Source: Weissella bombi
Lineage (GTDB): Bacteria > Bacillota > Bacilli > Lactobacillales > Lactobacillaceae
Direction: 5' to 3'
Length of the DNA: 64,000 nt
NCBI RefSeq assembly: GCF_900094835.1
Contig: NZ_FMAO01000009.1
Location: forward strand, 1-64,000
Positions 23,441-48,754 of this stretch are shown in pieces. How positions within the stretch are numbered: the first letter of the stretch is position 1; every line of letters starts with the position of its first letter. Position numbers and translations under genes: made by a program. The notes beneath the pieces are model-generated. The model was not told the origin of the DNA, made no database searches, and was given only the letters and a program-made list of their open reading frames with translations.

Positions 23441-23605
23441 GCGAGACAAAAGTCGTTTTGAAGCCGGGGTGTAACGTGATTTGTGCAATTTTTGGCCGTA
23501 GCAAAGCGAAGGACAGGGATTGTATAAATTCCGTTACATTGAGGCTTCAGACTTTTGGAACGCGTTTATACTATAAAGATTACAGGCTTATAATTAATAC
23601 ATTTT
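23441..23605 (+). repeat. Palindromic repeat family, copy 1
   Basis: 165-bp imperfect palindrome, nested as GCG..CAAAAGT..GAAGCC..GTAACG on the left and CGTTAC..GGCTTC..ACTTTTG..CGCG on the right, around a core hairpin at 23494-23514 (GGCCGTAGC-AAA-GCGAAGGAC). Copy 2 aligns without gaps over the same 165 bases with about 19 differences by hand count; copies 3 and 4 align in the opposite orientation. Starts 16 bases after the LysM stop codon. A 61-codon open frame crosses it but I do not consider it a gene. The rest of this 310-base intergenic stretch holds only a hairpin (23611-23647) and the MFS leader. Confidence 0.85.
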
Positions 23606-23610
23606 TAACG

Positions 23611-23656
23611 AAATGACGTTGGGATATTTATTGTCTCAACGTCATTTACTATTTTG
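23611..23656 (+). terminator. Hairpin/terminator after repeat copy 1
   Basis: AAATGACGTTGGGA / TCTCAACGTCATTT stem (about 13 bp) with a short loop; the T run after it is interrupted (ACTATTTTG). A similar but weaker GTTGG...CCCAATC pairing follows repeat copy 2, so it may belong to the element. Confidence 0.6.
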
Positions 23657-23735
23657 TAATGAAAAAGATACTTACACATATTCAATAAATGTGCTTAAAT
23701 AAAAATCAGGCACTTTTTAAGATTTAGGAGGAGTT

Positions 23736-25121
23736 ATGCAAGAAGAGAAAGTTTCACCCAAAGTTATTTGGTCAATTGTGGCCACTGCTATTTTGGGATT
23801 TTCAGGTATTTTAACAGAAACGTCAATGAATGTGACGTTTCCGGAATTAATTCAACAATTCCATCAACCAATGGGGACAGTACAGTGGTTAACAACTGCT
23901 TATCTATTAGTCGTTGCATTGATGATGTTGACGTCAGCTCACTTTAATTCAATTTTGAGCAAACGTTGGACATATTTGATTGGCTGGATTGCGTTTGTTG
24001 TTGGTGATGTTATTGCTATGGTAGCACCTAATTTCTGGTTACTATTGTTTGGACGTTTAATTATGGCCGTTGGTACAGGATTTGCACTACCATTAGTGTT
24101 TAACATTATCTTTACGAGTGTTCCAATGTCACAACTTGGTAAGTTTATGGGATTTGGAACATTGATTATTTCTTTGGCACCGGCATTAGGACCTGTATAT
24201 GGAGGTGTGGTAGCCTACACTTTGGGTTGGCGTGCTATTTTCATGATTATTTTACCAGTAGCACTTATTTCATTATTAATTGGTTGGTTTAATCTTGATA
24301 AGCAAGTACCAAAGACAGCAAATAAGTTTGCACTAGGACAGTTTGTGTTAATTGGTGCATCACTAACATCAGCATTGTTGGCATTGGGTCAACTAGAATC
24401 AGGTAAGATTACTGTAACGATTATTAGCTTGTTTGTCGTTGCAATCGTGGCAATGACTGCATTTATTATGGTTGCTAAGAAGTCACAACATCAATTAATT
24501 GATTTAACTATTTTCCGTAGTAAAGCGCTTGTTATGGCGTTGTTGATTTATGCAACATCACAAGCAATTAATTTGGCTGTTAACTTTGCATTGCCACAGT
24601 ACACACAACTAACATTGGGCGCTACAACAATGGTTGCTGGTTTCATCTTGATGCCAGGTTCATTATTAGGTTCAGCCGTTGCACCGGTTTACGGGGCAAT
24701 GTATGATCGTAAGGGTGCTAACCAACCATTAGCTTGGGGTACTATTGCATTTTTGGCAGTTATGATTGTCTTTTCATTCATGGCACCAAATATTATGACT
24801 ATTGGTTTGACGGTTGTTTACGCTTTGTTCACGTTAGCACGAAACTTGACATTTAGTGTGTCAATGACTGCTGGAGTTGCTGAAGTTCAGCCACAACAGT
24901 CAGGTGATGTTAACGCTGTGTTCAACACGATGCAACAATTTATTGGTGCGGTTGGAACAACAGTTGCTGCCTTGTTTATCCAAACAACAGGTACAACTAA
25001 AGCTGCTATTGCATCACAAACAGCGACTGGTTTTGGTCACTTAATTGTATTTAGTACAGTTATTGTTGCCATCAGTTTGATCTGGTTAGTTGTCTTTATG
25101 AAGACTAAGACGGCTAAGTAA
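23736..25121 (+). CDS. MFS drug efflux transporter (DHA2/EmrB-QacA type)
   Basis: 461 residues with about 14 membrane segments. Motif C-like GFGTLIISLAPALGPVYGG (near 142) marks drug:H+ antiporters; AYLLVVALMMLTSAHFNSILSKRWTYLIGW is the motif A region, with its usual Gly/Arg pattern weakened. It likely exports a toxic amphiphile at the expense of the proton gradient. Strong AGGAGGAG precedes ATG. Single-gene unit with two terminators behind it and no adjacent regulator. Confidence 0.88.
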   Translation: MQEEKVSPKVIWSIVATAILGFSGILTETSMNVTFPELIQQFHQPMGTVQWLTTAYLLVVALMMLTSAHFNSILSKRWTYLIGWIAFVVGDVIAMVAPNFWLLLFGRLIMAVGTGFALPLVFNIIFTSVPMSQLGKFMGFGTLIISLAPALGPVYGGVVAYTLGWRAIFMIILPVALISLLIGWFNLDKQVPKTANKFALGQFVLIGASLTSALLALGQLESGKITVTIISLFVVAIVAMTAFIMVAKKSQHQLIDLTIFRSKALVMALLIYATSQAINLAVNFALPQYTQLTLGATTMVAGFILMPGSLLGSAVAPVYGAMYDRKGANQPLAWGTIAFLAVMIVFSFMAPNIMTIGLTVVYALFTLARNLTFSVSMTAGVAEVQPQQSGDVNAVFNTMQQFIGAVGTTVAALFIQTTGTTKAAIASQTATGFGHLIVFSTVIVAISLIWLVVFMKTKTAK

Positions 25122-25130
25122 AAAAATATA

Positions 25131-25174
25131 AAGGCTATTGCTTCAATTAATTAGTTGAGGTGATAGCTTTTTTG
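25131..25174 (+). terminator. First terminator after the MFS gene
   Basis: AAGGCTATTGCTTCAA / TTGAGGTGATAGCTTTT imperfect stem followed by T6. Confidence 0.75.
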
Positions 25175-25185
25175 TTAAATATAAA

Positions 25186-25238
25186 AAAATAAAGGCCGGT
25201 GAAATCCGTATGATTGATTTCACCGGCCTTTATTTTAG
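25186..25238. terminator. Second, very strong terminator
   Basis: A perfect 20-bp stem (left arm 25188-25207, right arm from about 25216, core AAAGGCCGGTGAAATC), flanked by A on the left and T on the right. Placed in tandem with the first, it isolates the opp operon from read-through. Confidence 0.92.
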
Positions 25239-25299
25239 CTAAAAAACGAACAATAAACCGTTAAATGAGTTTAAAATTAGAAAAATATTAAAATATTCC

Positions 25300-25328
25300 T
25301 TGAATTAAAAAGACCGTTACATTATAAT
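25300..25328 (+). promoter_or_regulatory. Promoter of the opp operon
   Basis: TTGAAT (25300-25305), 17-base spacer, TATAAT (25323-25328), 64 bases before oppD. A/T-rich sequence continues upstream to the terminator. No CodY-like palindrome is clear to me. Confidence 0.7.
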
Positions 25329-25391
25329 ATTAAAAAATTATGATAGATTTAAGAATAAGATGATAGCTACGAAAAAGTCGAGGTGAACTAA

Positions 25392-26408
25392 GTGGAAGAC
25401 GGACAAGAATTATTGGAACTAAATGATATTTCAACGTCTTTTAAGATTGACGGGCAGTATTATGACGCGATATCACATATTAATTTAACTGTGAAGAGAG
25501 ATGGAATTTTAGCAATTGTTGGTGAATCAGGATGCGGGAAAAGTACATTAGCCACAACTATTATGGGGTTACATGATACAGATACAACTCGTATTAGTGG
25601 ACAAGCGTTATTTGATGGACAAGATTTATTAAAATTAGATGATAAAAGCATGAACGATATTCGAGGCGCCAAAATTGGGATGATTTTTCAAGATCCGCTA
25701 TCGGCACTTAACCCATTAAAACGCATCGCAGATCAGATTAGTGAGGGATTGGATTATCATACGACCATGACATCTGATGAAAAACATGCTCGAGTGATGG
25801 AGTTGTTGTCTCAAGTAGGTATTGTGAATCCTGAACGAACAGCACGGCAATTTCCGCATGAGCTATCAGGTGGAATGAGGCAACGTGTGATTATCGCAAT
25901 TGCCATTGCATGTAAACCAGATATTATCATCGCTGATGAACCAACTACGGCATTAGATGTAACCATTCAAGCACAAATTTTAGATGTATTACGTGGTATT
26001 CAAGCTGAGAATCATGCAGGAATTATTTTGATTACGCATGATTTGGGAGTTGTTGCTGAGACGGCCGATGAAGTTGCAGTTATGTATGCTGGTGAAGTTG
26101 TTGAACGTGGTACGACCGAACAAGTATTTAATAACCCACAACATCCGTATACCCGCTCATTATTGCGTTCAGTGCCACAGGGGAATCAAGATGTGACACA
26201 TGATGATCTTTATGTGATTGAGGGAAGTGTCCCCTCAATAGAGCGTATGCCACAAACGGGTGATCGTTTTGCACCACGGATTCCGTGGATTCCAGCCGAA
26301 GCGCATGAAGAAAATCCAAGTATGCATGAAGTTGCACCGGGACATCAGGTTAGGTGTACGTGTTATCAACAATTTTATTTTAAAAGCTTGGAGGAAACGA
26401 ATAAATGA
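25392..26408 (+). CDS. oppD: Oligopeptide ABC transporter ATP-binding protein OppD
   Basis: 338 residues. Walker A GESGCGKST, Q-loop MIFQDPLSALNPLKRI, signature ELSGGMRQRVIIAIA, Walker B IIIADEPTTALDVT, switch ITHDLG. Pairs with OppF to power peptide import. Starts with GTG at 25392 after GAGGTG. The C-terminal oligo_HPY region, where relatives have a CxxxxxxC pair and further cysteines for an iron-sulfur cluster, reads GDRFAPRIPWIPAEAHEEN, and only cysteines near the end (RCTCY) remain. Overlaps oppF by ATGA. Confidence 0.95.
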   Translation: MEDGQELLELNDISTSFKIDGQYYDAISHINLTVKRDGILAIVGESGCGKSTLATTIMGLHDTDTTRISGQALFDGQDLLKLDDKSMNDIRGAKIGMIFQDPLSALNPLKRIADQISEGLDYHTTMTSDEKHARVMELLSQVGIVNPERTARQFPHELSGGMRQRVIIAIAIACKPDIIIADEPTTALDVTIQAQILDVLRGIQAENHAGIILITHDLGVVAETADEVAVMYAGEVVERGTTEQVFNNPQHPYTRSLLRSVPQGNQDVTHDDLYVIEGSVPSIERMPQTGDRFAPRIPWIPAEAHEENPSMHEVAPGHQVRCTCYQQFYFKSLEETNK

Positions 26409-27358
26409 GTTTAGTTGAAATTAAAGATTTAAAAGTTCATTACCCGATTCGTTCAGGTTTTTTGAATCGGGTAACTGATAAAGTTAAAGCGGTTGATGGT
26501 ATTAATTTGAACATTGAAGCCGGTGAAACATACGGATTGGTAGGCGAATCTGGCTCAGGAAAATCAACTACTGGTAAATCAGTAGTGGGATTAGAAAAAA
26601 TCACCTCGGGTTCAATTAAGTATAAAGGTGTTGATATTACTAATGTGAGTGCTCGTCGTAATGTTAATTATAATCAGAGCGTACAAATGATTTTTCAAGA
26701 CTCATTGTCTAGTTTGAATCCACGTAAAAGAGTGTTGGACATTATAGCAGAACCGTTACGAAATTTTCAGCATTTATCAACCGAAGAAGAAAAAATTCGA
26801 GTGCTGCAGTTGCTAGAAATAGTTGGCTTAAGTCCGGAGTCATTGTATAAATACCCACACCAATTTTCAGGAGGTCAACGACAACGTATTGGGATTGCAC
26901 GGGCCGTTGCTACAAACCCAGAATTGATTATTGCTGATGAACCAGTTTCTGCTTTGGACTTGTCTGTTCAAGCACAAGTACTGAATTTCATGAAGAAGAT
27001 TCAACGTGAATTTGGTATTTCATATTTGTTCATATCACATGATTTAGGTGTTGTTCGGCATATGTGTCAGAACATTGCCATTATGAATAAGGGGCGTTTG
27101 GTTGAAGTCGGTACTCGTGAAGATATTTATGACAATCCATTACACATTTATACCAAACGTTTGTTAGCAGCAATTCCTGAAGTGGATGTTTCTAAAAGGC
27201 AGGAACGGCAACAACAACGTAAGCAAATTGAAAAAATGTATAACGAGCAAGCTGATCAATATTATGACGAAGAGGGGTTAGCTTATCCGTTAGTACAGGT
27301 GTCACCAACGCACTTTGTGGCATTGCCTAAAGAACAGATTATTGATCAATTAAAGTGA
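26405..27358 (+). CDS. oppF: Oligopeptide ABC transporter ATP-binding protein OppF
   Basis: 317 residues. Walker A GESGSGKST near 44, MIFQDSLSSLNPRKRV, signature QFSGGQRQRIGIARAV near 155, Walker B LIIADEPVSALDLS, switch ISHDLG. Second ATPase of the Opp transporter. The C-terminal extension is highly charged and ends LVQVSPTHFVALPKEQI. GGAGG precedes its ATG inside oppD. Confidence 0.95.
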   Translation: MSLVEIKDLKVHYPIRSGFLNRVTDKVKAVDGINLNIEAGETYGLVGESGSGKSTTGKSVVGLEKITSGSIKYKGVDITNVSARRNVNYNQSVQMIFQDSLSSLNPRKRVLDIIAEPLRNFQHLSTEEEKIRVLQLLEIVGLSPESLYKYPHQFSGGQRQRIGIARAVATNPELIIADEPVSALDLSVQAQVLNFMKKIQREFGISYLFISHDLGVVRHMCQNIAIMNKGRLVEVGTREDIYDNPLHIYTKRLLAAIPEVDVSKRQERQQQRKQIEKMYNEQADQYYDEEGLAYPLVQVSPTHFVALPKEQIIDQLK

Positions 27359-27374
27359 AAGGGGGACACAGTTA

Positions 27375-28331
27375 ATGTGGAAAACAATTCTACGACGAAT
27401 CTTAATTATGATTCCAGAAATTATTTTATTAAGTATTTTAGTTTTTCTTTTGGCTAAAGCCATGCCAGGTGATCCCTTTACAGGATCAATCAATCCACGT
27501 TCAAGTGCAACGCAAATTGAACATTTAAAACAGTTGAATGGGCTTTATGATCCATGGTATCAACAATATTGGAATTGGGTAGTGCATCTATTCCATGGTG
27601 ATTTGGGACAAAGTTATCAGTATCATGAACCCGTGACGAACTTGATTGGCGATCGTGCTATTAATACGCTATGGTTATCGGCATTTACGATGATTTTGAC
27701 ATACGTGATTGCATTGCCATTAGGTCTTTATGCAGGAAAACATGATGGTAAATTACCAGATACGGTTATTCGAATTTATACCTACGTGACGTACTGTATT
27801 CCGTTCTTCGTTATCTTAGTAATTGGTTTGTGGATATTCGGTTATGTACTAAATTGGTTCCCAACAACCGGGTCGGTATCACCGACAGCTACGGGGATGT
27901 GGATGATTGGTTCACGATTCTTACACGTACTACTACCGGGATTGTTAGGTGCGTTGTTTGGGACCGTCAATGTTGTACAGTATATGCGTTCTGAAGTTAT
28001 TGATGCGAAAAATTCAGATTATGTACGTACGGCACGTTCAAAAGGAGTACCACAAAAAGCAATTTATAAGCATCATATTTTCAGAAATTCATTATTACCG
28101 ATTGCTGCTTTTGGTGGTTATTCAATTACAGGATTATTGAACGGTTCGATTTTTACTGAAACCATTTTTTCATATCCAGGAATGGGAATGTTATTTATTG
28201 ATTCCATTAGTTATCGAGATTACACAGTAATTACGGCGTTAGTCTTGCTGTTTGGTATTCTAAACCTTTTGGGTACGTTACTATCAGATATTATTCTTAG
28301 TGTTGTTGATCCGCGCATTCGTGTTAATTAA
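27375..28331 (+). CDS. oppB: Oligopeptide ABC transporter permease OppB
   Basis: 318 residues, six membrane segments; EAA loop DYVRTARSKGVPQKAIYKHHIFRNSLLP at about 216-244; N-terminal RRILIMIPEIILLSILVFLLAKAMPGDPF is the DppB/OppB signature. Forms the channel with OppC. AAAGGGGG precedes the ATG. Confidence 0.95.
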   Translation: MWKTILRRILIMIPEIILLSILVFLLAKAMPGDPFTGSINPRSSATQIEHLKQLNGLYDPWYQQYWNWVVHLFHGDLGQSYQYHEPVTNLIGDRAINTLWLSAFTMILTYVIALPLGLYAGKHDGKLPDTVIRIYTYVTYCIPFFVILVIGLWIFGYVLNWFPTTGSVSPTATGMWMIGSRFLHVLLPGLLGALFGTVNVVQYMRSEVIDAKNSDYVRTARSKGVPQKAIYKHHIFRNSLLPIAAFGGYSITGLLNGSIFTETIFSYPGMGMLFIDSISYRDYTVITALVLLFGILNLLGTLLSDIILSVVDPRIRVN

Positions 28332-28346
28332 GAAGGGGGCATAAAA

Positions 28347-29291
28347 ATGGTAATGAATACAAAATCAACCGAAATGTCGCCTGAAGAATTAGCGACATTG
28401 ACGGAGCAAGCAAAACAAGAAGCTGCACCGTCAGCAACTAAAATTTTATGGCAAGAGATTAAGGCGGATCGACCGGCTTTGATTTCTCTAATCATCGTAG
28501 TAGCAGCAATTCTGTTTGTGATGATTACGCCTTTGTTTATTAATACTAGCAAAATGATGTCTACAGATATCTTAGCGTATTTAACGCCCCCATTACATGA
28601 CCACTTTTTGTTAGGTGCTGATGCAAATGGACGATCGATTGCCATGCAATTAATTGTTGGATCTCGAAATTCAATCGGGATTGCCATTGGGTTAACCATT
28701 ATTTCTTCAACGATTGGAATTGCTTGGGGGTTAATTTCAGGTTATTTCGGTGGTTATGTTGATTGGGGGATGCAACGTGTCTATGATTTCATGATGATGT
28801 TGCCGATGACAATGATGATAATCGTTTTGGTTACAATTATTGATAACTATAATTCAGTTACTTTAACGTTAATTTTTTCATTGTTTTATTGGATGGGAAC
28901 ATCTCGTCTAATTCGATCACGAACGTTGTCAGAAACAAAGAAAGATTATGTGGCTGCGTCAATTACTTCGGGAACCAAGCCATTAAAGATTATTTTTAGG
29001 GAAATCATGCCCAACATTTCATCATTAATTATTGTAGATACGACACTTTCATTCGCTGAGAACATCGGTGTTGAAACTGGACTATCATATTTGGGATTTG
29101 GTTTACCACCCCAGACACCATCTTTAGGAACATTAATTGCTAATGCAAATGATCCTAATAACATTACACAATATTGGTGGACTTGGTTACCCGCTGCTAT
29201 TGAGATTATTATTTTATGTTTAGCGATTAGTTATATTGGTCAAGTTGTTAGTCGTGCAGCAAACGCGTCACAACGTCGAGCAGGCAAATAA
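28347..29291 (+). CDS. oppC: Oligopeptide ABC transporter permease OppC
   Basis: 314 residues: cytosolic N-terminal ~45 residues, then six membrane segments with HFLLGADANGRSIAMQLIVGSRNSIGIAIG and the EAA loop DYVAASITSGTKPLKIIFREIMPN near 196-220. GLSYLGFGLPPQTPSLG is a family hallmark. Partner of OppB; AAGAAGGGGGC precedes the ATG. Confidence 0.95.
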   Translation: MVMNTKSTEMSPEELATLTEQAKQEAAPSATKILWQEIKADRPALISLIIVVAAILFVMITPLFINTSKMMSTDILAYLTPPLHDHFLLGADANGRSIAMQLIVGSRNSIGIAIGLTIISSTIGIAWGLISGYFGGYVDWGMQRVYDFMMMLPMTMMIIVLVTIIDNYNSVTLTLIFSLFYWMGTSRLIRSRTLSETKKDYVAASITSGTKPLKIIFREIMPNISSLIIVDTTLSFAENIGVETGLSYLGFGLPPQTPSLGTLIANANDPNNITQYWWTWLPAAIEIIILCLAISYIGQVVSRAANASQRRAGK

Positions 29292-29395
29292 TTATCAGAC
29301 AAGAGTATTAAGGGTGGTGATGGGCTTTCAAAAACATAATATATTGTCATCATATTGGAATTTTTTCATGAATAAAAAGGGAATGAGGATAGCGT

Positions 29396-31204
29396 ATGAA
29401 TAAGGCAAGTAAAAAATGGGCAGTTTCATCAGCAGCGGCTTTAGCAGTTATGTCGATTGCTGCTGTAAGTATCGATAGTGGTAATGATGTCGCAGCGGCT
29501 GAAACAAAGCGTGCTAAGTTGTCAGATACGTATAAAAATAACGCTAAGACTGATAATAAAGCAAATAATAAAAGTACTTTAAAGGTTGCTGAACCAAATG
29601 ACTCACCTTTTAAGGGGATTACTGAGCCTATTTTGGCTGATAATCAAGAGGATAGTAACGTATTTAGCCCAGGTGGTTCTGGTAATTTGTTTAATATTGA
29701 TAAGAATTACAAAATTATTGATGGTGGGTTAGCTAACCAAAAACTGGATCGTGATAATAATACGGTCACGATTACAATTCGTGACAATGCTAAGTGGTCA
29801 GATGGGAAGCCGGTAACTGCACGTGATGTTGAGTATGCATATGAAATTATTGCGCACCCTAAGTCAACATCGTCACAATACTCATCAGATTTTGAACGTA
29901 TTGCTGGAATGAAAGATTTCCATGATGGCAAAGCAGATACTATTTCAGGATTTACATATCCAGATGGTGAGGATGGTAAGAAAGTTGTCATCCAATATAA
30001 TGCACTATCACCAAGTATGAAATATTCAGGTAATTCATTTATCTGGGGAACGGTAGCGCCTTATCACCTTTATAAGGGCGTACCAATTGATAAGCTAGCA
30101 GGTTCTGATCAAGTACGTAAAAACCCAGTGTTTGTCGGTCCATATAAATTGGATAAGGTTGTTGAGGGAGAGTCAACTTCATGGTCACCTAATAAGTACT
30201 ATTGGGGTAAGCAACCTAAGATTAAGCATGTAACGATTAATGTCGTATCATCTAATAGTATTGATAAAGCAATTCAAACAAGTAAATATGACTTTACGTC
30301 ACCAGCAGGTGTTATGCGTGGTACAAGTTATAAGAACTTAAAGAAGCTAAAAAACTATAAGATAGTTGGTCAACCAGACCTAGGTTATAACTACTTTGGA
30401 TTCAATGTCGGTGAATACGACACTGATAAAAAGGTTAACGTTATGGATCCTAAGTCAAAGATGAGAAATAAGAACTTACGTCAGGCTATGATGTATGCCG
30501 TAAATGAAGACGCGATTAATGATAAGTTCGGTAATGGCGTTAAGTGGCGTGCTAAAACATTGATTCCACCAATTTTCGGAAAGTATGCTGACAAGTCAGC
30601 TAAGGGATTCCCATATAATCCTAAGAAGGCTGAAAAACTTTTGGATGACGCTGGCTATAAGAAAGATGGTAAGTGGCGTACACAACCAAATGGTAAGAAA
30701 TTAGTTATCCATTTTGGTGCTATGCAGGGATCTTCAACGAGTCATGCAACATACCAAGATTATTTGCAACGTTGGCGTAAAATTGGTTTGAACGTTAAGA
30801 TGGCAACTGGTAAGGAAATGGAAATGAATAGTTTTTATGACACACTACAAAAACCAAAGCAAAATAAGATTGATATCTTCAGTGCTGCTTGGAGTGTATC
30901 GTCTGAACCAACACCAAGTCAATTGTATGGTGCTGATGCGCCATTTAACATGGGTCACTTTGTGACGAGGAAGAATACACAGTTGATCAATGATATGAAT
31001 AATGACAAGGCATGGAATGATTCATATCGTACTGAGAAATTCAAGGAATGGCAAAAGTACATGAATGATCAAGCAGCCTATGTGGCAACTGATAACAGTT
31101 ATCGATGGGGTCCAGTTAATAAGCGAGTTAAAGGCTTTGATATTGGCGCTGCTAATAATGAATTCTGGAGCAACTTGTCATTGACGTCATCGAAGATAAA
31201 GTAA
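29396..31204 (+). CDS. oppA: Oligopeptide-binding protein OppA (no lipobox)
   Basis: 602-residue family 5 extracellular solute-binding protein: DRDNNTVTITIRDNAKWSDGKPVTARDVEYAYEII (about 115-150) is the SBP_bac_5 signature, with NKNLRQAMMYAVNEDAI near 360. It captures peptides for OppBCDF, feeding the amino-acid auxotrophies usual in lactic acid bacteria. The signal peptide (KK, hydrophobic 11-25, then DVAAAET) contains no cysteine, so it cannot be a lipoprotein. TGAGGATAG precedes the ATG. Last gene of the operon, with a 104-base gap after oppC and a strong terminator after it. Confidence 0.93.
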   Translation: MNKASKKWAVSSAAALAVMSIAAVSIDSGNDVAAAETKRAKLSDTYKNNAKTDNKANNKSTLKVAEPNDSPFKGITEPILADNQEDSNVFSPGGSGNLFNIDKNYKIIDGGLANQKLDRDNNTVTITIRDNAKWSDGKPVTARDVEYAYEIIAHPKSTSSQYSSDFERIAGMKDFHDGKADTISGFTYPDGEDGKKVVIQYNALSPSMKYSGNSFIWGTVAPYHLYKGVPIDKLAGSDQVRKNPVFVGPYKLDKVVEGESTSWSPNKYYWGKQPKIKHVTINVVSSNSIDKAIQTSKYDFTSPAGVMRGTSYKNLKKLKNYKIVGQPDLGYNYFGFNVGEYDTDKKVNVMDPKSKMRNKNLRQAMMYAVNEDAINDKFGNGVKWRAKTLIPPIFGKYADKSAKGFPYNPKKAEKLLDDAGYKKDGKWRTQPNGKKLVIHFGAMQGSSTSHATYQDYLQRWRKIGLNVKMATGKEMEMNSFYDTLQKPKQNKIDIFSAAWSVSSEPTPSQLYGADAPFNMGHFVTRKNTQLINDMNNDKAWNDSYRTEKFKEWQKYMNDQAAYVATDNSYRWGPVNKRVKGFDIGAANNEFWSNLSLTSSKIK

Positions 31205-31240
31205 GTTAAATATTATGTATAAATTGAAGTATATGTAAAT

Positions 31241-31292
31241 AACTGGTCGGAAAGAATTTGGTGTTGAACCTAATTCTTTCCGACCAGTTTTG
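31241..31292 (+). terminator. opp operon terminator
   Basis: AACTGGTCGGAAAGAATT / AATTCTTTCCGACCAGTT stem of about 18 bp with T-rich 3' side. Confidence 0.93.
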
Positions 31293-31420
31293 TGTTGATG
31301 CGTTTGTTGTTGATAATTAAGGGTAGTAAATTGTAATGTATTTTTCAGTCCGAAAATTATTCTGTGATACTATTAAAACAATATAACGTAATTGTATTTG
31401 ATAAATAGGGAGTATATATC

Positions 31421-31930: not shown

Positions 31931-31975
31931 TTGATATTCTGTTACTGTTCAGAATGGTTAAATTGAGGTATTGAG

Positions 31976-32398: not shown

Positions 32399-32481
32399 TA
32401 AACGATATTAAAGTTAAAATGAAATTACCATGTTCAAGGCATAGATATCAATAATATTTGTTCTAAAGTTCACGGAAATTT

Positions 32482-33095: not shown

Positions 33096-33121
33096 TCCTT
33101 TTGTGTTTGATTTTATACCGC

Positions 33122-39733: not shown

Positions 39734-39935
39734 AATTTACCCCCTCTTAATCACTCTCCCCCATTCGATAGAATATGGCATTTATTAAAATTTCATATTC
39801 TAATTATATTATAACAAAAACAAAATATAAGCGTACAAAAAGGTGATTTATGTTTAAATTGTAACTAAAATAAATTAAAGTAATTGACTTAACAGGCATA
39901 TAATGGTTTTTATAGCATGAGTAATTATCATGAGA

Positions 39936-40100
39936 GCGAGACAAAAGTCGTTTTGAAGCCGGTGTGTAACGTGCTTGTCGTAATTTTTGGCCGTAGCAAG
40001 GCGAAGGACAAGGATTTCGGCAATTGCGTTACATTGAGGCTTCAGACTGTTGGAACGCGTTTATGCTATAAAACTTACGGGCTTATAATTAATACATTTT
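39936..40100 (+). repeat. Palindromic repeat family, copy 2
   Basis: Gap-free match to copy 1 over 165 bases (about 88 % by hand count). Core hairpin at 39989-40009. The inner stem differs from copy 1 but still pairs: here TTGTCG with CGGCAA, where copy 1 has TTTGTG with TATAAA. It lies in the 457-base gap between the divergent genes starting at 39733 (minus) and 40191 (plus), in the same strand sense as the downstream DUF3290 gene. Nothing else is evident in that gap apart from a weak GTTGG/CCCAATC hairpin after the repeat. Confidence 0.85.
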
Positions 40101-40190
40101 GAATTAAGAAGGTTGGAACGATTTCTTTTGTCCCAATCTATTCATAGTAATCATTTTCATGTGTCTTTTAAAAAATCAGAGGTTAACATC

Positions 40191-40640: not shown

Positions 40641-40643
40641 ATC

Positions 40644-41282: not shown

Positions 41283-41329
41283 AAAAACCTCCAAGACTAA
41301 CAGTTAAGTGTTAATCTTGGAGGTTTTTT
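41282..41329. terminator. Bidirectional terminator
   Basis: AAAAAACCTCCAAGA / TCTTGGAGGTTTTTT perfect 15-bp stem between DUF421 and the convergent AEC transporter. Confidence 0.92.
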
Positions 41330-41336
41330 GTAACTA

Positions 41337-42308
41337 TTAAACAAGTAGCATAATAATAACTACGGCAAATGGAAAAATAAAGATACTTTCCGTTAAAATA
41401 CGTGTTGAAAAGTCAACGTCCATGTCATTTTGTTCAGCTAACATTGGTAGAACAGTTAACATTGGTGTTATTGATTGAATCATCAATGTCTTAACTAATA
41501 AGTCAGGTAGTGTAAATAGACCAGTTAATTGGTTAATCCATAGGACAACCGCCATCATAAGGGGTGTAATCACGAATTTTCCTATCTGAGCAAAAATATC
41601 AACTTTTTCCATTTTAAGATGCGATAATTGTGTTTTTGCAAGTTGTAAACCAATAAAAATAAGTGAAAGTGGCGTTACAACGTTTGCAACATAATTAAGC
41701 CCTTGGTATAAAAAGCCATTAACGGGTAGTTTGATATTAATGAAAAAGAAGATAATTCCGATAACAAATCCCCACATAGGTGGTGTTAGGAGATTAAGTG
41801 TACGACGCCATAATGGTAATTTAACAGTGTCAGTTGTTTGAGGGCCATCTTTATAAATTAATTTAACACCAACTGCCCAAGTGGTAATCGTATTAGCTAC
41901 GAAGTAGGCTAAAAAGTAAGGTAAACTTTTGCTACCAAATAAAGCGAGGTTTAATGGTAGACCAACGAATAAGGTATTCGCATTAACAAATCCGTTTAAA
42001 AAGATACTACGACGATCTTTATTAAGGTGTAGTAAATGACCAACTGGGATTGCGATTAAGAAGCAAAGACCAATGGCAATCAATGATAAAATAACACCAA
42101 TCAATAGGATGTGAAAGTTTTGTCTGTTGATGTATTTTTGTGCCGAAATAAAAACCGATACAGGTAGTGCGACATTAACAACAATGGTTGATAGGTCGTT
42201 GATAAAATGGTCGCTAACAGCTTTAGACTTACCAATAATAATACCGATAATAATGATAGTGATAATAATAAGAACACTATTTAATGAAATAAGAAAGGTT
42301 GGTAGCAT
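41337..42308 (-). CDS. AEC family transporter
   Basis: 323 residues with ten membrane segments, of the auxin efflux carrier superfamily: LPTFLISLNSVLIIITIIIIGIIIGK start, VNVALPVSVFISAQKY, GFVNANTLFVGLPLNLALFG and QSITPMLTVLPMLAEQNDMD near the C-terminus. In lactic acid bacteria these often carry malate or other organic acids, but no malolactic gene is adjacent here. AGGAG precedes the ATG. Confidence 0.87.
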   Translation of the reverse strand: MLPTFLISLNSVLIIITIIIIGIIIGKSKAVSDHFINDLSTIVVNVALPVSVFISAQKYINRQNFHILLIGVILSLIAIGLCFLIAIPVGHLLHLNKDRRSIFLNGFVNANTLFVGLPLNLALFGSKSLPYFLAYFVANTITTWAVGVKLIYKDGPQTTDTVKLPLWRRTLNLLTPPMWGFVIGIIFFFINIKLPVNGFLYQGLNYVANVVTPLSLIFIGLQLAKTQLSHLKMEKVDIFAQIGKFVITPLMMAVVLWINQLTGLFTLPDLLVKTLMIQSITPMLTVLPMLAEQNDMDVDFSTRILTESIFIFPFAVVIIMLLV

Positions 42309-42494
42309 AAAAAACTCCTAAAATAAATTGATGAATTAATGACTATGTCAATTAATAGCAATCAAATTCATTCTACACTTATATAATCTTAAATGCGATG
42401 CCATTTAAGAGTTGATACGATAAATTTGCAATGGCATATGTAATCAGTATTATATGGTTTATAAAAATAAATTTAGAAGTAGTGGGGAATTAAG

Positions 42495-42917
42495 ATGAAT
42501 ATTTGGCAAACATTATATGAAAAAGCAAAAGTACAATATGATCCAAAAGACGTTACACCATTTATTTATGCGCATAATGTTGTTTGTGCATTAGAAGCAG
42601 AAAATGGCGATATTTATACAGGATTTTGTGTGGAAAGTTGTTCAGGCGTTTGCAATTTGTGTGCAGAACGAGTAGCGGCTTTGAACATGTATGTTAATAG
42701 TGGGCAAACGCATATTAAGAGAATGATTGCCTTTCGCGATTCGGCGCCTAGTGGTGGTGGTTCGGGGATGCCTTGTGGTGCTTGCCAAGACTTTTTATTG
42801 CAATTAGATCAAAAAAATAAGGCAACTGAAATCATGATTGACTATGGTAATCTAGAAACGACGACTTTAGGTGAATTAATGCCTAATTGGTGGGGGAATG
42901 AACGGTATAGTGAATGA
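42495..42917 (+). CDS. Cytidine deaminase-like protein
   Basis: 140 residues of the zinc-dependent cytidine deaminase fold: CAERVAALNM (near 55, Cys-Ala-Glu) and MPCGACQDFL (near 95) supply the zinc ligands and catalytic Glu. The substrate may be cytidine, blasticidin-like or another nucleoside; the extra cysteines in ESCSGVCNLCAE are unusual. GTGGGG precedes the ATG. Confidence 0.83.
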   Translation: MNIWQTLYEKAKVQYDPKDVTPFIYAHNVVCALEAENGDIYTGFCVESCSGVCNLCAERVAALNMYVNSGQTHIKRMIAFRDSAPSGGGSGMPCGACQDFLLQLDQKNKATEIMIDYGNLETTTLGELMPNWWGNERYSE

Positions 42918-42990
42918 ATAATAATTGATTAAGGTTACACCTGGTCGTCTTGAGGCATCCTAAAATTATTCAACAATTTGAACAACTATA

Positions 42991-43030
42991 AAAAATGGTC
43001 GAGTAGCAGTTTTGTTACTCGACCATTTTG
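42991..43030. terminator. Terminator
   Basis: AAAATGGTCGAGTA / TACTCGACCATTTT stem of 14 bp, A and T flanks. It can serve the deaminase (plus) and the exporter gene (minus). Confidence 0.92.
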
Positions 43031-43097
43031 CGTGTGTTTTAAGCGTGGGATGTTTGACTGTTTATATAAAAATACCCGAAAGTTAAAAATTAACTTA

Positions 43098-45157
43098 CTA
43101 TTTTAAATTTAATTTTTTAGTAACAACATTATCTAAAAATTTATCATGTGTAATTATAATAATAAGTTTATTTTCTGTAAGTAATGTATTAAGTATAATT
43201 TTGAGGCCGTTTTTGCTTTTTTGGTCTAAATGCGATGTTGGTTCATCTAAAAGATATACTGAAGATTCATGAAGTAACGCACGTAAAAGTAAAATTTTTT
43301 GTTTTTGTCCCTCAGATACATTAGTACCAGTAGTTGTTAAATTAAAAGAATCTTTTAAATCTAAGTGTAAGAGTTTTTTAAATTGATAGTATTTTTTTCC
43401 TGTGTATTAATTGATTTGGAATTTTCAATAAATATATTAAATAAAATGTTGTTTTTAAGTGTATCCTCATAAACATGCATTTCGGAAGAATACATAGAGG
43501 TGACAGCTCTTAAATAATTTTGGCTAGTATATCCAGTATTATGAGTATCTGCAATAAAAATATTATTATAATTAGTAGTTTCTAAACCAGCTAGTATTCT
43601 AAAAAGTGTAGATTTACCTGTTCCAGTATCTCCAGTTAGTAAGTTGATTTCTTTATTCGTGAATATATGATTCGGGTATGCTATTTTTCTGTTCTTTGTT
43701 TGACATATATGGGAAAAACATTTTATTTTTATATTTTTTATTGTAAATGATTTGTTAGTTATATTATTTGAAGCAGGTTTATTAAAAATTTGAGTATTTA
43801 GATTTACGTAATTGATAGCCGCTTTACTTTGAGCAAAGTTTATATAATTGTTTACAATTCGAGTTGTACTTGAAATGATAATGAAAAGCAGGTATATTCC
43901 CGTTTCTATGTTAACAAGATTATTAGTAGTATAAAAAATACATAATCCGGCTAAAGATAATAATAGAATATTTATAGTTATTTGTATTAACACTTGCAAT
44001 TTTATTTGCAATGTTGAATATTGTTTAGTAGATTTAAAAAAATTATCAATTTTTAATTGAAACCATTTGTTAGCTTCTTGCTTTTTGTTAAATGTATTGA
44101 TATCAAAACTTGATTGTATTAAATTTATGAAACAATTAGAGTAACTATTTCCTATATGCATGTTTTCTAAAAAAGTATTACAAATTTTATTTGATTGAGA
44201 AATTACTATAAAAGTTATAATGAGTATCCATGCAAATAGAAATATTGTTAATATAGGACTATACAACAGTAGAAAGAATAAAAGAAATAGTAAATAGAAG
44301 CATTCTAATTTTAAGAATAACTTGTCCACAGAACCATGGACGGCCATTATGATGTTCCAAAAATATGTAGAGCTTTTTTCTATTTCTTTATTTGCATATA
44401 TATCAGCTAATTTATGGTTTAAAAAATTTTTAATTAATTCTTGTTGGATAGCGTTAATTAGATTTATTTTTATGTTGTTTAATTTATGAATAGACAGTTG
44501 AAAAATAATTGTTAGGAAAATAGTTAAAATGATTAATTGAAAATAAACTATTTTATCTTGTATATTAGTAATAGCTGAAGAAATAATATGTGTTAAAAAA
44601 ATAGGAATAAAAGATACATTAATTACAGAAATAATTAAGAAAGCTTTGGAAAAGTAAGATAATTGTTTAATTTTCTTTTTCAAAAAAAATGTTGAGTCAA
44701 TTTGATTTGTAATATTGGCTTTTGAAAACATTTTAAAAATGTTAATATCTTTGTGAATAATGATTACTTGACCTAAAAACATTTTAAAAAAATCAGATTT
44801 TGTGATTTTGGTGATTGTTGTATTGCAAGGATTTGAAATGACCAAATAGTGTTTGAATACTTTATGAATGACTATATAGTGTGGAATATTATTCTCTAAT
44901 ACACGAGCAATGCAAGGCATTTTTATAGATGATAATTCTTCATTAGATTCAATTAAAAAACAATCACTATTTAGATAATGTTTTTTAAGAATATTTTGAA
45001 GATCTAGCATTGATAGTTCTTTAGAGATATCAATATTTAGAGAATCGATAATAAAACGAAAATTATTAGCATTTACATTATGACTTTTAAGGATAGTTAT
45101 AATTACAGCTACACCACAATCATAATCACTGTTTTGCATAGTATGAGGTTTTTTCAT
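43098..45157 (-). pseudogene. C39-peptidase bacteriocin ABC exporter, frameshifted
   Basis: Read from ATG 45157 (AAGGA upstream) the frame gives 598 residues: an N-terminal C39 peptidase (Gln8, Cys14 in YDCGVA, His93 in PHYIVIH, Asn109 where Asp is usual), six membrane segments (about 165-435) and an ATPase with Walker A GDTGTGKST near 509, stopping at 43361. Past a run of seven A (plus-strand T7 at 43392-43398), the +1 frame continues with the missing half: VSEGQKQKILLLRALLHE signature, VYLLDEPTSHLD Walker B, IIIITHD switch, to a TAG at 43098. One extra A would restore a 686-residue protein of normal size. It would cleave and export the double-glycine peptide encoded just upstream. Very A+T-rich. 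Confidence 0.85.
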
Positions 45158-45187
45158 GAAGATTCCTTAAGTTAAAAAAACAGTATA

Positions 45188-45304
45188 TTAAGAATATATT
45201 GTATAGCAATAGACAAACCATCCTCCAGATTTTTTGCAAATCTTATGAATATGTTTTTTTCCACCATAAAGTTTCGATGATTCAAATTGTGTTAATTTTT
45301 TCAT
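45188..45304 (-). CDS. Double-glycine leader peptide (putative bacteriocin or pheromone precursor)
   Basis: 38 codons, AAGGAG six bases before ATG 45304. The N-terminus MKKLTQFESSKLYGG is a textbook double-glycine leader; the predicted mature peptide has 23 residues starting KKHIHKICK, five Lys and two His, with Cys at mature positions 8 and 18 and an aromatic C-terminal half (WFVYCYTIYS). It lacks the YGNGV box of pediocin-like bacteriocins. Its start overlaps the flippase stop (ATGA), and the C39 exporter gene begins 31 bases after its stop, so maturation and export by that protein is the natural reading. Too short for routine gene calling. No immunity gene is obvious. Confidence 0.8.
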   Translation of the reverse strand: MKKLTQFESSKLYGGKKHIHKICKKSGGWFVYCYTIYS

Positions 45305-46728
45305 AAGCACTCCTTAAAAAATGATTTTATAATTGTTAATATTTTTTTGTAGAAAAAAATTCCGACAGATAATATATATACAACACTACCAATTAGAATT
45401 TCTAAAAGTAAATTACCAGAACTCAAAGGTAACTGGTGATTTATGAACAAAACTATTCCATACATTAAAATAGCAGATATCAAGAATTTTAGACTTCTTG
45501 AAAATATTTGTTTTATATTGAAATGCTTTTTAATAATATAGAACTGAACCACGGTGACAGATAATTCAGCAGCTATGGTTGCATATACAACACCAATTTC
45601 TTGAAATAACTTAATACATGGATAGTTTAGTAATAAATTGATGCAAGCGCCAATTACTACAGAGTAAAAATATGGTTTTATATTTTTAGTTGGTATTAAA
45701 AATTGGACGCCGATGATATGACTCCAACTAATCAAGATAATTAAAAGTGCTTCTAATTCAATGTAGGTTGATATGCCAGAAAATTTATTGGAAAAAAACC
45801 ATAATGAGAAATCTTTTGATAAAGCTAATATGCCAGCGACTAATGGAAAACATAAAAAATTGGTAATGAGAAAACTATTTACAATTAATTTTTTAAGTGT
45901 TTCAAATTGTTTTGTAGCATATAATTTATTTATTCTCGGAATAAAAACTGTACCAGAAGCAGTAATGAAAGTTATTAAAATTCTTATTAATCGATCAGCG
46001 TTTTCAAAGTAGGCAACAGCAGTCATACTAGAAAATATACCCAAGTAAGTCTTATTAATAGTGGCATATAAAGTAATGATTAATTCAGGTAGAAGTAAAA
46101 GAGCTGCTGGTTTGATATGCTTTTTAAAATGCCAATAATGTTTTGTTGGTTTAGCAATTTCTTTGTGTAGATTTGTATAGAAAGTTAAATTACTAATTAA
46201 AGTAGAACAAGATAAGATACAGATGTACAATAGTAAATCTGATTGATTTTTTATAAGAATAAAAATACTAAGAATAGTGGCGATACGCATGATAAGATTA
46301 CGTATCGTGATTAATTTAAAGTTTTCAATACCTTGATAGTACCAGGAAATGTCCAAGGCCAGTGCAATAATTTGAATAGATTGGGCTAAATAGAAGATAA
46401 AGTAAGTTGTCTGAGTTAAAAATAAAAAGACTATAAAAATTATAAAGGTAAATATAGAGACAATTATTCGAAAGAAATAAAGTTCCCAAAATAATTGAGT
46501 TTGTAATAATTTGTTTTTTTTAGAAGTAGTAATTAGCTGACAACCGTAAGTGACACCAATAGTAGCGATTAAGATAAAATATTGGGTATTTGTTGCAGTG
46601 TAAGAATGAATACCAAGTTCATGAGGGCCTAAAGTTCGGGCTATATAAGGCATTGTTAATAGAGGGACAAATAAATTAAAAATGTGATACAAAACGTTCC
46701 AAAAATAGTTATACACTAAAGATGTCAT
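45301..46728 (-). CDS. Wzx-like polysaccharide/oligosaccharide flippase
   Basis: 475 residues, 12-14 membrane segments of the MOP superfamily. The N-terminus VLYHIFNLFVPLLTMPYIARTLGPHELGIHSYTAT is diagnostic of Wzx/RfbX flippases, which turn lipid-linked oligosaccharides across the membrane. No glycosyltransferase or polymerase gene is nearby; instead the stop overlaps the start of a double-glycine peptide gene. No clear Shine-Dalgarno before ATG 46728. Codon use is extremely A/T-biased, unlike the flanking genes, which suggests acquisition by transfer. The 276 bases upstream contain only a possible extended -10 (TGCTATATT, minus strand, near 46770). Confidence 0.88.
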   Translation of the reverse strand: MTSLVYNYFWNVLYHIFNLFVPLLTMPYIARTLGPHELGIHSYTATNTQYFILIATIGVTYGCQLITTSKKNKLLQTQLFWELYFFRIIVSIFTFIIFIVFLFLTQTTYFIFYLAQSIQIIALALDISWYYQGIENFKLITIRNLIMRIATILSIFILIKNQSDLLLYICILSCSTLISNLTFYTNLHKEIAKPTKHYWHFKKHIKPAALLLLPELIITLYATINKTYLGIFSSMTAVAYFENADRLIRILITFITASGTVFIPRINKLYATKQFETLKKLIVNSFLITNFLCFPLVAGILALSKDFSLWFFSNKFSGISTYIELEALLIILISWSHIIGVQFLIPTKNIKPYFYSVVIGACINLLLNYPCIKLFQEIGVVYATIAAELSVTVVQFYIIKKHFNIKQIFSRSLKFLISAILMYGIVLFINHQLPLSSGNLLLEILIGSVVYILSVGIFFYKKILTIIKSFFKECL

Positions 46729-47004
46729 ATAATTTAACCAAGCTTTTTGAGAAATTATCTGTTAAAAAATATAGCATGATTCTTTCAGGAAGGATTTGCT
46801 GTAAATTAATCGTACTAAAATTGTAATTAAACGTCATTGAGTGTAAAGCCTTATAGAAATGCTAAATACTAAATAATATTAATAAATCGGCTAATTTTCT
46901 CATTTTAAGGTAAAATTTAGATTACGACTTCCAGAAAATAGTGCAGTATAACAGGTTTTGTGGTATTATAATTAAATTAGAAACTAAGGATAGGAGTTGT
47001 CTAA

Positions 47005-47649
47005 ATGTTAGCGACTTTAGTTAAGTCTCGAGACCTATTAACAACGCTCAGTGAAAATGCAACACTTCAAGATGCATTAGATGTCTTTGATAGCTCTAAC
47101 TTCCGAGCTATTCCTATTTTAGACGAAAGCGGACAATTGTTTCGCGGTGCCATTTATAAATTGCACATTTACCAGCATTTAATTCAAGGTGGAGATTTGA
47201 ATGCACCGGTGACGAGCTACATGCGTAATATGACCAAATTCGTGCGTGTGGAATCAACTTTTTACGAAGCATTTTTTACATTAAAAGATTTACCATTTAT
47301 TTCAGTTCTTGATAACGATAATCATTTTATCGGTATCTTAACACACGCGCGTATGATGAGATTACTAGCTGATTCTTGGACGACAGATGGCGGTCGTTAT
47401 AGTTTAACGCTGGTATCTGAAGGTGAGCGGGGTACGTTAGAAAAAGCAACCCATATTATTTCTCGATATACCACCATTTCATCAGCAATGACTTTAAATC
47501 CTGATAAAAACCCACGAACAACTCGCTTGTTGTTCACATTACCACGTACGGTGAGTGAAGGTTCTTTGTCAAAAATCATTAAGATATTATCTCGTAAGGG
47601 TTATCATTTAGAGTCATTAGAAGATTTATCACAATCATCATATATGTAA
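47005..47649 (+). CDS. CBS domain protein with C-terminal ACT-like domain (CbpA-like)
   Basis: 214 residues: two CBS motifs (about 1-62 and 68-125) and an ACT-like region (about 130-208). Soluble, cytosolic. Proteins with this architecture, such as Listeria CbpA, bind cyclic di-AMP or adenine nucleotides; that assignment here is inference from architecture. GGATAGGAG precedes the ATG. 51 bases separate it from the TatD-like gene, so they may be cotranscribed. Confidence 0.78.
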   Translation: MLATLVKSRDLLTTLSENATLQDALDVFDSSNFRAIPILDESGQLFRGAIYKLHIYQHLIQGGDLNAPVTSYMRNMTKFVRVESTFYEAFFTLKDLPFISVLDNDNHFIGILTHARMMRLLADSWTTDGGRYSLTLVSEGERGTLEKATHIISRYTTISSAMTLNPDKNPRTTRLLFTLPRTVSEGSLSKIIKILSRKGYHLESLEDLSQSSYM

Positions 47650-47700
47650 GGTATTCAAAAGCGACCAACTATTTGGATCGCTTTTTTGTTAGGAGATTAA

Positions 47701-48426
47701 ATGATGTTAATTGATATGCATAGTCATAGTGATGGTAGTGCTGAATTTATTGCAGAACAAAATAAAGCACATGTTGCTAGTGTTTTGAATGCAACAACGA
47801 GTGAAGAATTCCAATTTAATCAGCGTTATATTGGTGAGCAGCAGTTACTTAGTTATGGTGTTCATCCATGGGAATCACAACGACAAATTATTAATCATGA
47901 GTTATTAATGCGTGCACCAATTATTGGTGAAATTGGCTTGGATACGGAATGGACAGATGTGCCTTTAACTATTCAACGGCCTGTTTTTTCGGCACAATTA
48001 CGGACTGCGCAACAATTAAATAAACCAGTTGTTTTGCATACCAAAGGGTGTGAAGCAGAAATTTTGGATACTTTAAAAGCGTATCCGCAATTAACGACTT
48101 TAGTACACTGGTATTCGGCAGCAGAATATCAAGATGAATACTTAAAACGGCCAAATAGTTATTTTTCAATTGGTCCTGATGTGTTGACTGATTCGGTTGT
48201 ACAGGAGTTTGCTAAAAAAGTACCAGCAACGCAATTATTTATTGAATCAGATGGGTTAGAAAGTTTTGTCTGGGTTTTAAAAAGATCGGTTGATGTTAGT
48301 GAGTATCAGTCGTTGCTAGAAGTGGTTTATCAAAAAGTAGCGCAACTACGAAATGTTTCTGTAGAACAACTAGAATTACAAGTGCAGAGTAATTGGCAAC
48401 AATTTCTAACTAGTCTATCAAAATAA
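47701..48426 (+). CDS. TatD-like metal-dependent hydrolase, second copy
   Basis: 241 residues, shorter and distant from the tatD at 5.3 kb. DMHSHSDGS supplies the first histidines, GEIGLDTEW the Glu, VVLHTKG and LVHWYSAAEY two further His, and FIESDGLES the Asp. Likely a Mg2+/Mn2+ phosphoesterase; substrate unknown. AGGAG precedes the ATG pair at 47701/47704. A terminator (48430-48463) and then two tandem palindromic repeats follow. Confidence 0.85.
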   Translation: MMLIDMHSHSDGSAEFIAEQNKAHVASVLNATTSEEFQFNQRYIGEQQLLSYGVHPWESQRQIINHELLMRAPIIGEIGLDTEWTDVPLTIQRPVFSAQLRTAQQLNKPVVLHTKGCEAEILDTLKAYPQLTTLVHWYSAAEYQDEYLKRPNSYFSIGPDVLTDSVVQEFAKKVPATQLFIESDGLESFVWVLKRSVDVSEYQSLLEVVYQKVAQLRNVSVEQLELQVQSNWQQFLTSLSK

Positions 48427-48429
48427 TAC

Positions 48430-48463
48430 GAAAAGCCGTCAATCGTTCGATTGACGGCTTTTA
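48430..48463 (+). terminator. Terminator
   Basis: AAAAGCCGTCAATCG / CGATTGACGGCTTTT stem of about 14 bp with a tiny loop. Confidence 0.93.
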
Positions 48464-48478
48464 ATGGTTTTTTGGGTG

Positions 48479-48492
48479 ATTTTTTCACACTC
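48479..48492 (+). repeat. Solo end sequence of the palindromic repeat
   Basis: ATTTTTTCACACTC, identical in type to the right ends of copies 3 and 4 (48609-48622 and 48741-48754). It precedes copy 3, so each unit in the tandem pair is flanked by this 14-bp direct repeat. Confidence 0.75.
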
Positions 48493-48495
48493 TTT

Positions 48496-48622
48496 AACGT
48501 GTTCAAAAAATCTGAACCTTAAATGTAACGCTATTTAGATCAGTCACGTCCTGCGCGTTGCTCCGGACATAACCGATCTAAACAACGTTACAACCGGGTT
48601 CAAACCAATTTTTTTCACACTC
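48496..48622 (-). repeat. Palindromic repeat family, copy 3
   Basis: Imperfect palindrome: GTG..AAAAAAT..GAACC..TGTAACG..TTTAGATC on the left and GATCTAAA..CGTTACA..GGGTTC..ATTTTTTTCAC on the right. The core hairpin at 48548-48568 runs from GTCC to GGAC. It aligns with copies 1 and 2 when these are reverse-complemented (AACGTGTTC versus AACGCGTTC, then TCTGAA, CC and AATGTAACG). I assign the minus strand because there the conserved core mismatches become G-A pairs. Confidence 0.85.
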
Positions 48623-48627
48623 TTTTA

Positions 48628-48754
48628 AACGTGCTCAAAAAATCTGAATCCTTAATATAACGCTAGTTAAACTAATCACGCCCTACGCTGCGCTTCGGTC
48701 GCAATCAACTTAACCAACGTTATACTCGGATTCAAAACGATTTTTTTCACACTC
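48628..48754 (-). repeat. Palindromic repeat family, copy 4
   Basis: Tandem to copy 3 with a 132-base period. The same nested stems have changed bases on both arms: TATAACG/CGTTATA for TGTAACG/CGTTACA, GAATCC/GGATTC for GAACC/GGGTTC, GTTAA/TTAAC for the next stem. Core hairpin at 48680-48700. Its last base touches the tetR stop codon (48755), so on the minus strand it is the immediate 3' UTR of tetR. Confidence 0.85.

Follow-up and report, generated by a model that had tools for sequence, protein, structure and literature searches.

The closest described systems to the hairpin repeat examined here, which occurs in four copies in a 64,000-nucleotide stretch of Weissella bombi DNA (contig NZ_FMAO01000009.1, positions 1 to 64,000; the window), are EFAR and Efa-1 together with the wider class of miniature inverted-repeat transposable elements (MITEs), likened to it by description only. 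Venditti is said in 2007 to have treated EFAR and Efa-1 as one family, the targets of EFAR reportedly being stem-loops that are lost on insertion. Repetitive extragenic palindromic (REP) elements are high-copy, clustered, imperfect intergenic palindromes with a polarity, traits in which the present family resembles them; integron attC sites are folded single strands with one-sided bulges, a free inner stem-loop and a GTTRRRY core. MITEs are defined in the available portion of one survey as sequences of 70-300 bp with terminal inverted repeats of 15-30 bp and no coding capacity, and the same portion lists EFAR as a MITE of Enterococci and gives REP a length of 20-40 nt (PMC3733652). Efa-1 of Enterococcus faecalis appears, in an extract of its source, as an adjacent stem-loop pair of 163 bp, of intergenic type and with 65 copies (PMC2267715). 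Extracts of both papers present BOX, RUP, ERIC and NEMIS as dispersed, MITE-like folding repeats near genes (PMC3733652, PMC2267715).

We favour, with moderate confidence, the view that the window copies are members of a high-copy, non-autonomous family of mobile hairpin repeats, similar to MITEs and EFAR, that propagates as a folded single strand. The copies share an architecture with extensive covariation, are dispersed, are absent from some orthologous sites, form tandem arrays, can lose their inner hairpin and fold preferentially on one strand.

The resemblance to described systems is partial. The hairpin (about 110-125 nt) and the longer A-type unit (about 208 nt) fall within the size range of MITEs, and the sites of copies 1 and 2, compared with the sister genomes G019 and G022, are filled and empty as MITE sites are. 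The ends of copy 2 are 15 nt long and 80% complementary, whereas B-type copies and those elsewhere end simply in the hairpin foot. EFAR/Efa-1 elements have two stem-loops in about 165-170 bp and the Weissella A type two in about 208 nt, while other copies have one hairpin, often in tandem. BOX, RUP, ERIC and NEMIS are similar by description, in being dispersed, folding and near genes; their sequences were not compared. REP/RAYT palindromes measure 20-40 nt and carry a GTAG or CGTC tag, whereas this element has GTGA or AGA before its foot; a REP/RAYT identity was rejected on tag, size and Y1 transposase, which eight of nine element-carrying Weissella genomes lack and one, G021, has. The likeness to attC is functional only, lying in the folded strand, one-sided bulges and free inner stem-loop, and an attC identity was rejected on the 3' flank, which is mostly GTTAT or GTTTC, not GTTRRRY (position 5 is T in 73 of 112 copies). 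A relation to group II introns, considered because of insertion after terminators, was dropped since the fold is a single hairpin.

The hairpin and its covariation

The four hairpins of the window are as follows.

23441..23563, + strand: copy 1 hairpin, A type (R1 match of 134.1 bits; fold z -7.2 for 23441-23590)
39936..40058, + strand: copy 2 hairpin, A type (R1 match of 128.8 bits)
48499..48620, - strand: copy 3 hairpin, B type, tandem (R1 match of 113.7 bits)
48631..48752, - strand: copy 4 hairpin, B type, tandem (R1 match of 110.6 bits)

A sequence-only reading of the window had placed four related copies here, and searches with the covariance model R1, blastn and folding all bear it out, although the ends it gave at 23605 and 40100 take in part of a conserved tail and the hairpins proper are shorter. 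At E <= 0.01, R1 finds these four copies only in the window, each with a weaker echo on the other strand. Homology between the A and B types is shown by blastn, with E from 7e-11 to 2e-7 for window copies; compared directly, copies 4 and 2 gave no blastn match at 1e-4.

Common to the four copies is a nested hairpin of about 122 nt. On the element strand, the long stretches taken at the four copies score z -3.7 to -9.8 in folding and outdo every shuffle, while the inner 86 nt of copy 2 alone gives a weaker fold (z -2.8; 3 of 200 shuffles as good). Copy 3 folds at -60.6 kcal/mol on the - strand versus -37.7 on the + strand. From the foot upward, the architecture consists of GYG/CRC, a UGA/GAA internal loop, an 8-bp arm, a 4-nt GNUU bulge on the 5' side only, a 7-bp arm, GGAGUGUAAG/CUUACAYGCAGG-like strands and finally an inner stem, which differs widely between copies yet is still paired. 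Conservation of the unpaired parts was read from A3, a set of 37 copies from other genera and plasmids that is aligned to R1 and so leans to the R1 structure. In its GNUU bulge G is present in 37 of 37 copies and the two U in 33 and 36; in the foot loop the UGA side has U in 27, G in 33 and A in 31, and the GAA side G in 28, A in 30, and A in 17 with G in 16. A CCGNAGCNNNGCGNAGG core is present in Weissella-type copies, including those of Ligilactobacillus pobuzihii, and by eye it is not seen in the 37 A3 copies, whose apical loop is different.

Covariation was assessed against shuffled alignments. The principal alignment, A1, holds 42 copies and 47 pairs, leaving out the core-truncated L053 and duplicates of window copies; its strand was set by blastn homology, not by any structural score, and four of its rows are from L. 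pobuzihii. In A1, 95.5% of pair cells are paired (88.3 in shuffles), two-sided changes occur in 26 of the 47 pairs (12.5 in shuffles) and in 112 cells (30.3), and none of 500 shuffles reaches the observed value on any of five measures. A3 has 96.1% of cells paired, with two-sided changes in 41 of 48 pairs and 545 two-sided cells versus 166 when shuffled. The compensation that had been noted in the outer stems is also confirmed within the window, where copies 3 and 4 differ at 12 pairs of which 11 are still paired, six via changes on both sides.

Selection on folding, as claimed from the window alone, is strongly supported by the covariation in these two alignments and by an excess of G-U over A-C pairs on one strand; run with shuffles, the check that had been set against it, a lack of covarying pairs in a larger alignment, did not refute it. 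The claimed covariation of two N positions in the core does not survive. In A1 these positions read U-A 20 times, A-A 10 times, U-C six times and six other combinations once each, which fits column independence in the 42 copies, independent columns giving U-A 20.7 times (28 x 31 / 42). Because the U-A count matches this expectation, the two N are placed in the middle of a G.A / N.N / A.G internal loop. The earlier observation otherwise holds, and the family is larger than it reported.

Strand preference and neighbouring genes

G-U pairs outnumber A-C pairs on one strand by 242:21 in A1, 114:21 in A3 and 363:55 in the forward rows of A4, a set drawn from the best 150 of 199 matches, of which 113 were kept after removal of other-strand echoes. 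The element strand is stabler than its complement in 41 of 42, 36 of 37 and 109 of 113 copies, respectively, with RNA and DNA parameters alike. Recent changes were counted between nearest disjoint pairs of copies. The 20 such pairs in A1 show 61 one-sided changes from Watson-Crick to G-U, 18 to A-C and 29 to other combinations, with 17 two-sided changes between Watson-Crick pairs; the corresponding figures for the 50 pairs in A4 are 65, 42, 23 and 71.

Copies were then classed by orientation to their neighbours (109 of 113 in A4 and 41 of 42 in A1, those skipped being without a called gene on both sides), using crude longest-open-reading-frame gene calls. The ratio of G-U to A-C in A4 is 170:29 for copies antisense to both neighbours, 72:16 sense/sense, 73:7 anti/sense and 34:2 sense/anti; in A1 it is 52:11, 38:3, 29:1 and 117:9 in the same order. 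The excess by class is thus 4.5- to 17-fold in A4 and 4.7- to 29-fold in A1. Since the bias is present in copies sense or antisense to their neighbours, the favoured strand is the element's own and not that of a neighbouring mRNA. Replication strand was rejected as the source, just 65 of 110 arrays in genome G088 pointing against the leading strand.

This bias bears on the possibility that the repeat is a neutral MITE in decay, with template-switch repair or gene conversion keeping its arms complementary and no selection acting on its fold. Palindromes are prone to such repair, and the 71 two-sided changes between nearest A4 copies, the replacement or partial loss of the inner hairpin at one orthologous locus and the decay of orthologous copies (11 broken changes in three pairs) are all in keeping with it. 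It is strained, however, by the strand bias, as arm copying yields no excess of G-U over A-C, and by the one-sided GNUU bulge, with its invariant G in A3, and the internal loops, which persist and are not repaired to pairs. We consider this explanation improbable. The earlier conclusion was twofold, namely that the repeat is a structured RNA and that it is more than a decaying MITE. Only the second part is upheld; for the first, folded single-stranded DNA fits as well as an RNA would.

A second possibility is that the repeat is an mRNA element, a hairpin in the untranslated region (UTR) that sets mRNA stability, the release of ribosomes or end processing (e.g. by RNase III), a role already put forward for REP and NEMIS. 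In the window, copies 1, 3 and 4 are sense, with the run beginning 2-15 nt past a stop codon and ahead of a terminator-like stem: copy 1 starts 15 nt past the stop codon of a LysM gene (23036-23425), and copy 4 begins 2 nt past that of a TetR-like gene (48755-49357, - strand). Half of the 32 copies in L092-L116 start -4 to 8 nt from the stop of a sense gene. The 41 classed A1 copies are convergent in 19 cases, antisense to both neighbours in 12, sense to both in six and divergent in four, and 37 of them adjoin the 3' end of a gene. In Weissella, placement relative to gene ends is thus non-random, as the sequence-only reading had expected.

Arrays in genomes G088 and G266, analysed through 111 forward copies, are mostly antisense. 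Genes were called on both sides of 66 of the 68 arrays; 31 of these run antisense to both, 14 run sense to both, 13 lie between divergent genes and eight between convergent ones. A called gene is found no more than 35 nt from the 5' edge in 19 of 67 arrays, and from the 3' edge in two of 67; frequent positions are 22-26 nt ahead of an antisense gene start, or directly after a stop codon. At least five T in a row occur within 15 nt before 13 of the 23 arrays with a sense upstream gene, versus two of the 44 with an antisense one. Because a T-run precedes these 13, many arrays after a sense gene sit behind a likely terminator, which also speaks against a role in the message. With the excess present in either orientation, a role in host mRNA does not explain the G-U bias. 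The 3'-UTR RNA was dropped as a general explanation on the antisense position of most G088 and G266 arrays and on the strand bias, which they share, and we regard an mRNA element as unlikely.

The window copies lie within longer units whose other parts are listed below.

23564..23610, + strand: A-type conserved tail with GCTTATAATTAATACATTTT (from tail comparison)
23611..23647, + strand: terminator-like hairpin of the copy 1 unit (from a scan)
39933..40140, + strand: whole copy 2 unit, about 208 nt, missing at the orthologous G019/G022 site (edges exact only to a few nt)
39933..39947, + strand: left end of the copy 2 unit, AGAGCGAGACAAAAG, 80% complementary to the right end
40125..40139, + strand: right end of the copy 2 unit, CTTTTGTCCCAATCT, also the descending arm of its terminator-like stem
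48478..48492, - strand: foot of a third, truncated tandem copy, GAGTGTGAAAAAATC (read from the sequence)
48431..48462, no strand assigned: bidirectional terminator-like stem, common to the TetR-like gene (with copies 3 and 4) and a convergent TatD-like gene

The A type runs on from its hairpin into the conserved tail and then the terminator-like stem, while the B type is a tandem. A 20-nt tail motif is identical in copies 1 and 2, where 0.08 matches would be expected at up to three mismatches. The scan found no T-run at the terminator-like stem of copy 2. The tail of copy 1 contains a promoter-like TTTATA-18-TATAAT (10/12; window 23565-23594), which would fire directly into the terminator-like stem of its own unit; the same scan reported no such site in the tail of copy 2. 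Elsewhere, the end of a 5S rRNA gene lies at window positions 1-81, cut off by the window edge.

Flanks and tails are also relevant to a third possibility, that the repeats are a family of independent small RNA genes. The very stable one-strand fold and the terminator-like stem on A-type copies suit such genes, and 307 putative small RNAs are reported in Lactobacillus casei BL23 in the part of that study available (PMC8220740). Conservation of the 5' flank is limited to 2-4 nt, too short to contain a promoter; among the 112 A4 copies with full flanks, G, T, G and A predominate at positions -4 to -1, in 59, 75, 103 and 108 copies. Further, the promoter-like site of the A type comes after the hairpin. 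Small RNA genes are in our judgement very unlikely.

Dispersal and turnover

In the window genome (1.82 Mb), R1 gives 25 rows, made up of 12 full-length copies, four shortened, one weak and eight other-strand echoes. Within the genus, blastn finds DNA like copy 2 in six of 25 genomes (G000 included), and an exact 23-mer of the element is present in W. hellenica, W. paramesenteroides, W. fangxianensis and L. pobuzihii (13 stretches). G019 is taken as W. hellenica on the basis that its locus L037 bears the same element as L058. The L. pobuzihii copies (L065, L066) have the Weissella-type core, and their match ends at about position 142-155 of 165, so that most of the Weissella tail is missing; their sequence suggests transfer between genera.

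At E <= 0.001, R1 finds the element in 38 of 301 Lactobacillaceae genomes and 12 of 40 genera. R2, a covariance model built from A3 and applied at E <= 1e-4 with at most nine candidates scored per genome, finds it in 213 of 397 genomes and 25 of 40 genera. On an even draw of the class, R2 matches nine of 398 genomes, one being G000. Matches outside Lactobacillaceae are weak (41-54 bits for the best in each of eight genomes), and we do not claim the family there. One such genome of the Bacilli, G560, nevertheless bears a tandem of six units with the layout of the family (L246:1948-2681, 34-54 bits). An R2 match in G025 (L254:1353-1467) lies within a stretched T-box leader match (1177-1614) and would be a false positive or, alternatively, an insertion into that leader.

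A closer search of seven genomes gave at least 150 matches in G088, 132 in G266, 56 in G350, 26 in G189, 28 in G328, 24 in G156 and 29 in G560, counts that can include other-strand echoes. G088 has at least 139 distinct copies, none closer than 90 nt, in at least 110 arrays. Its L100 element most resembles plasmid elements of Lacticaseibacillus and Pediococcus, by which G088 is taken as Lacticaseibacillus. The L100 query matches 14 plasmid records; queries with copy 2, L094, L159 and L156 matched no plasmid, and phages and viral contigs gave no match for the queries used, including exact 20- and 25-mers.

No Rfam 15 family reaches its gathering score over the element in the window, in 15 distant loci or in 12 more, the exception being the weak G025 match inside a T-box match; copy 2 alone gives E-values of 2.2 and 5.5 at laxer limits. 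A match to the RatA antitoxin RNA family (59.4 bits) was seen at L102:2501-2586 (- strand) in a Lactobacillaceae genome. The literature search found no description of this hairpin family in the portions of the sources available.

Orthologous sites point to gain and loss. The copy 2 site in G019 and G022 is without approximately window 39933-40140, and their copy 1 site has no element and, by eye, a different terminator-like hairpin. At one orthologous locus the element is full in G019 and G022 and shortened in G000. Two Weissella genomes differ in the inner hairpin at the orthologous L041:728-841 and L056:202-323, in a way that looks like a swap or a partial deletion. Tandem arrays make up 33 of the 68 arrays in G088 and G266, with spacers of 7-15 nt. 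In the three Lacticaseibacillus paracasei plasmids examined, taken from six with 80% coverage, one locus bears two copies and a remnant, a single copy, or just the remnant. TGGAGA, read by eye, flanks both sides of the element at one plasmid locus. Two inverted pairs in G088 enclose genes of ordinary kinds (DUF975, Fe-S, Usp and HTH).

Proposed spread as a folded strand

The repeat therefore has the traits of a MITE in that it is dispersed, present or absent at orthologous sites and able to grow in tandem. Under the favoured reading of a mobile hairpin family, an enzyme would act on the folded single strand during spread, and new copies would arise only from those that fold well. As the spreading form, single-stranded DNA is more probable than RNA, since the bias persists in copies antisense to both neighbours and no 5' flank of promoter size is conserved. 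The Weissella unit would have picked up its tail and terminator-like stem, sitting mostly at gene ends. At copy 1 the unit stands in place of the terminator of the sister genomes, and effects on host mRNA would be secondary. A broader proposal is made more tentatively: mobile hairpins across the Lactobacillaceae may propagate in the form of a folded single strand (DNA or RNA) via an enzyme that is not a Y1 (HUH) transposase. Such an enzyme would recognise the GNUU bulge on one side and the overall shape, with most of the sequence playing no part, which would leave the inner stem free to turn over while paired.

Several observations weigh against spread as a folded mobile strand. No clear target-site duplication was found at copy 2. 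Copies 3 and 4 look ancestral, G019 keeping a short remnant-like stretch at their site, where the array was probably lost, judging from the sequence. The plasmid polymorphism is a change in array size and not a fresh insertion. Three orthologous pairs (leaving out the L041:728/L056:202 pair, which looks swapped) show 15 one-sided changes that keep the pair, 11 that break it and one two-sided change; orthologous copies thus keep more pairs than guessed without constraint, making host-level selection possible. The search for an enzyme or autonomous partner (a parent transposase) found none. Y1 transposase (PF01797) is present in three of 28 genus genomes and has no match in G000, G003, G012, G017, G019, G022, G024 or G409, while G021, with four R2 matches, has one Y1 gene; eight of the nine element-carrying Weissella genomes are thus without. 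The recent-change bias is weak in A4 (65:42), and G088 arrays are only weakly oriented against replication (65 of 110, among at least 110 arrays). Finally, the strands of A3 and A4 were picked by a model score that itself favours G-U, which leaves the orientation test clean in A1 only; the one-sided bulge speaks for the same orientation in A3 and A4, though both sets are the weaker test.

The family is a structured element with more than 100 copies in at least one genome, with no family in Rfam 15 and no description found in the accessible parts of the literature. It combines deep covariation with the behaviour of a mobile repeat, which calls for caution in discovering RNAs from covariation alone, and it offers a natural test case for how selection for mobility shapes nucleic-acid folds. 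The element also alters gene ends, copy 1 sitting where two sister genomes have another terminator-like hairpin. The shape of the repeat is apparently kept for its own spread, and not as part of the messages of neighbouring genes.

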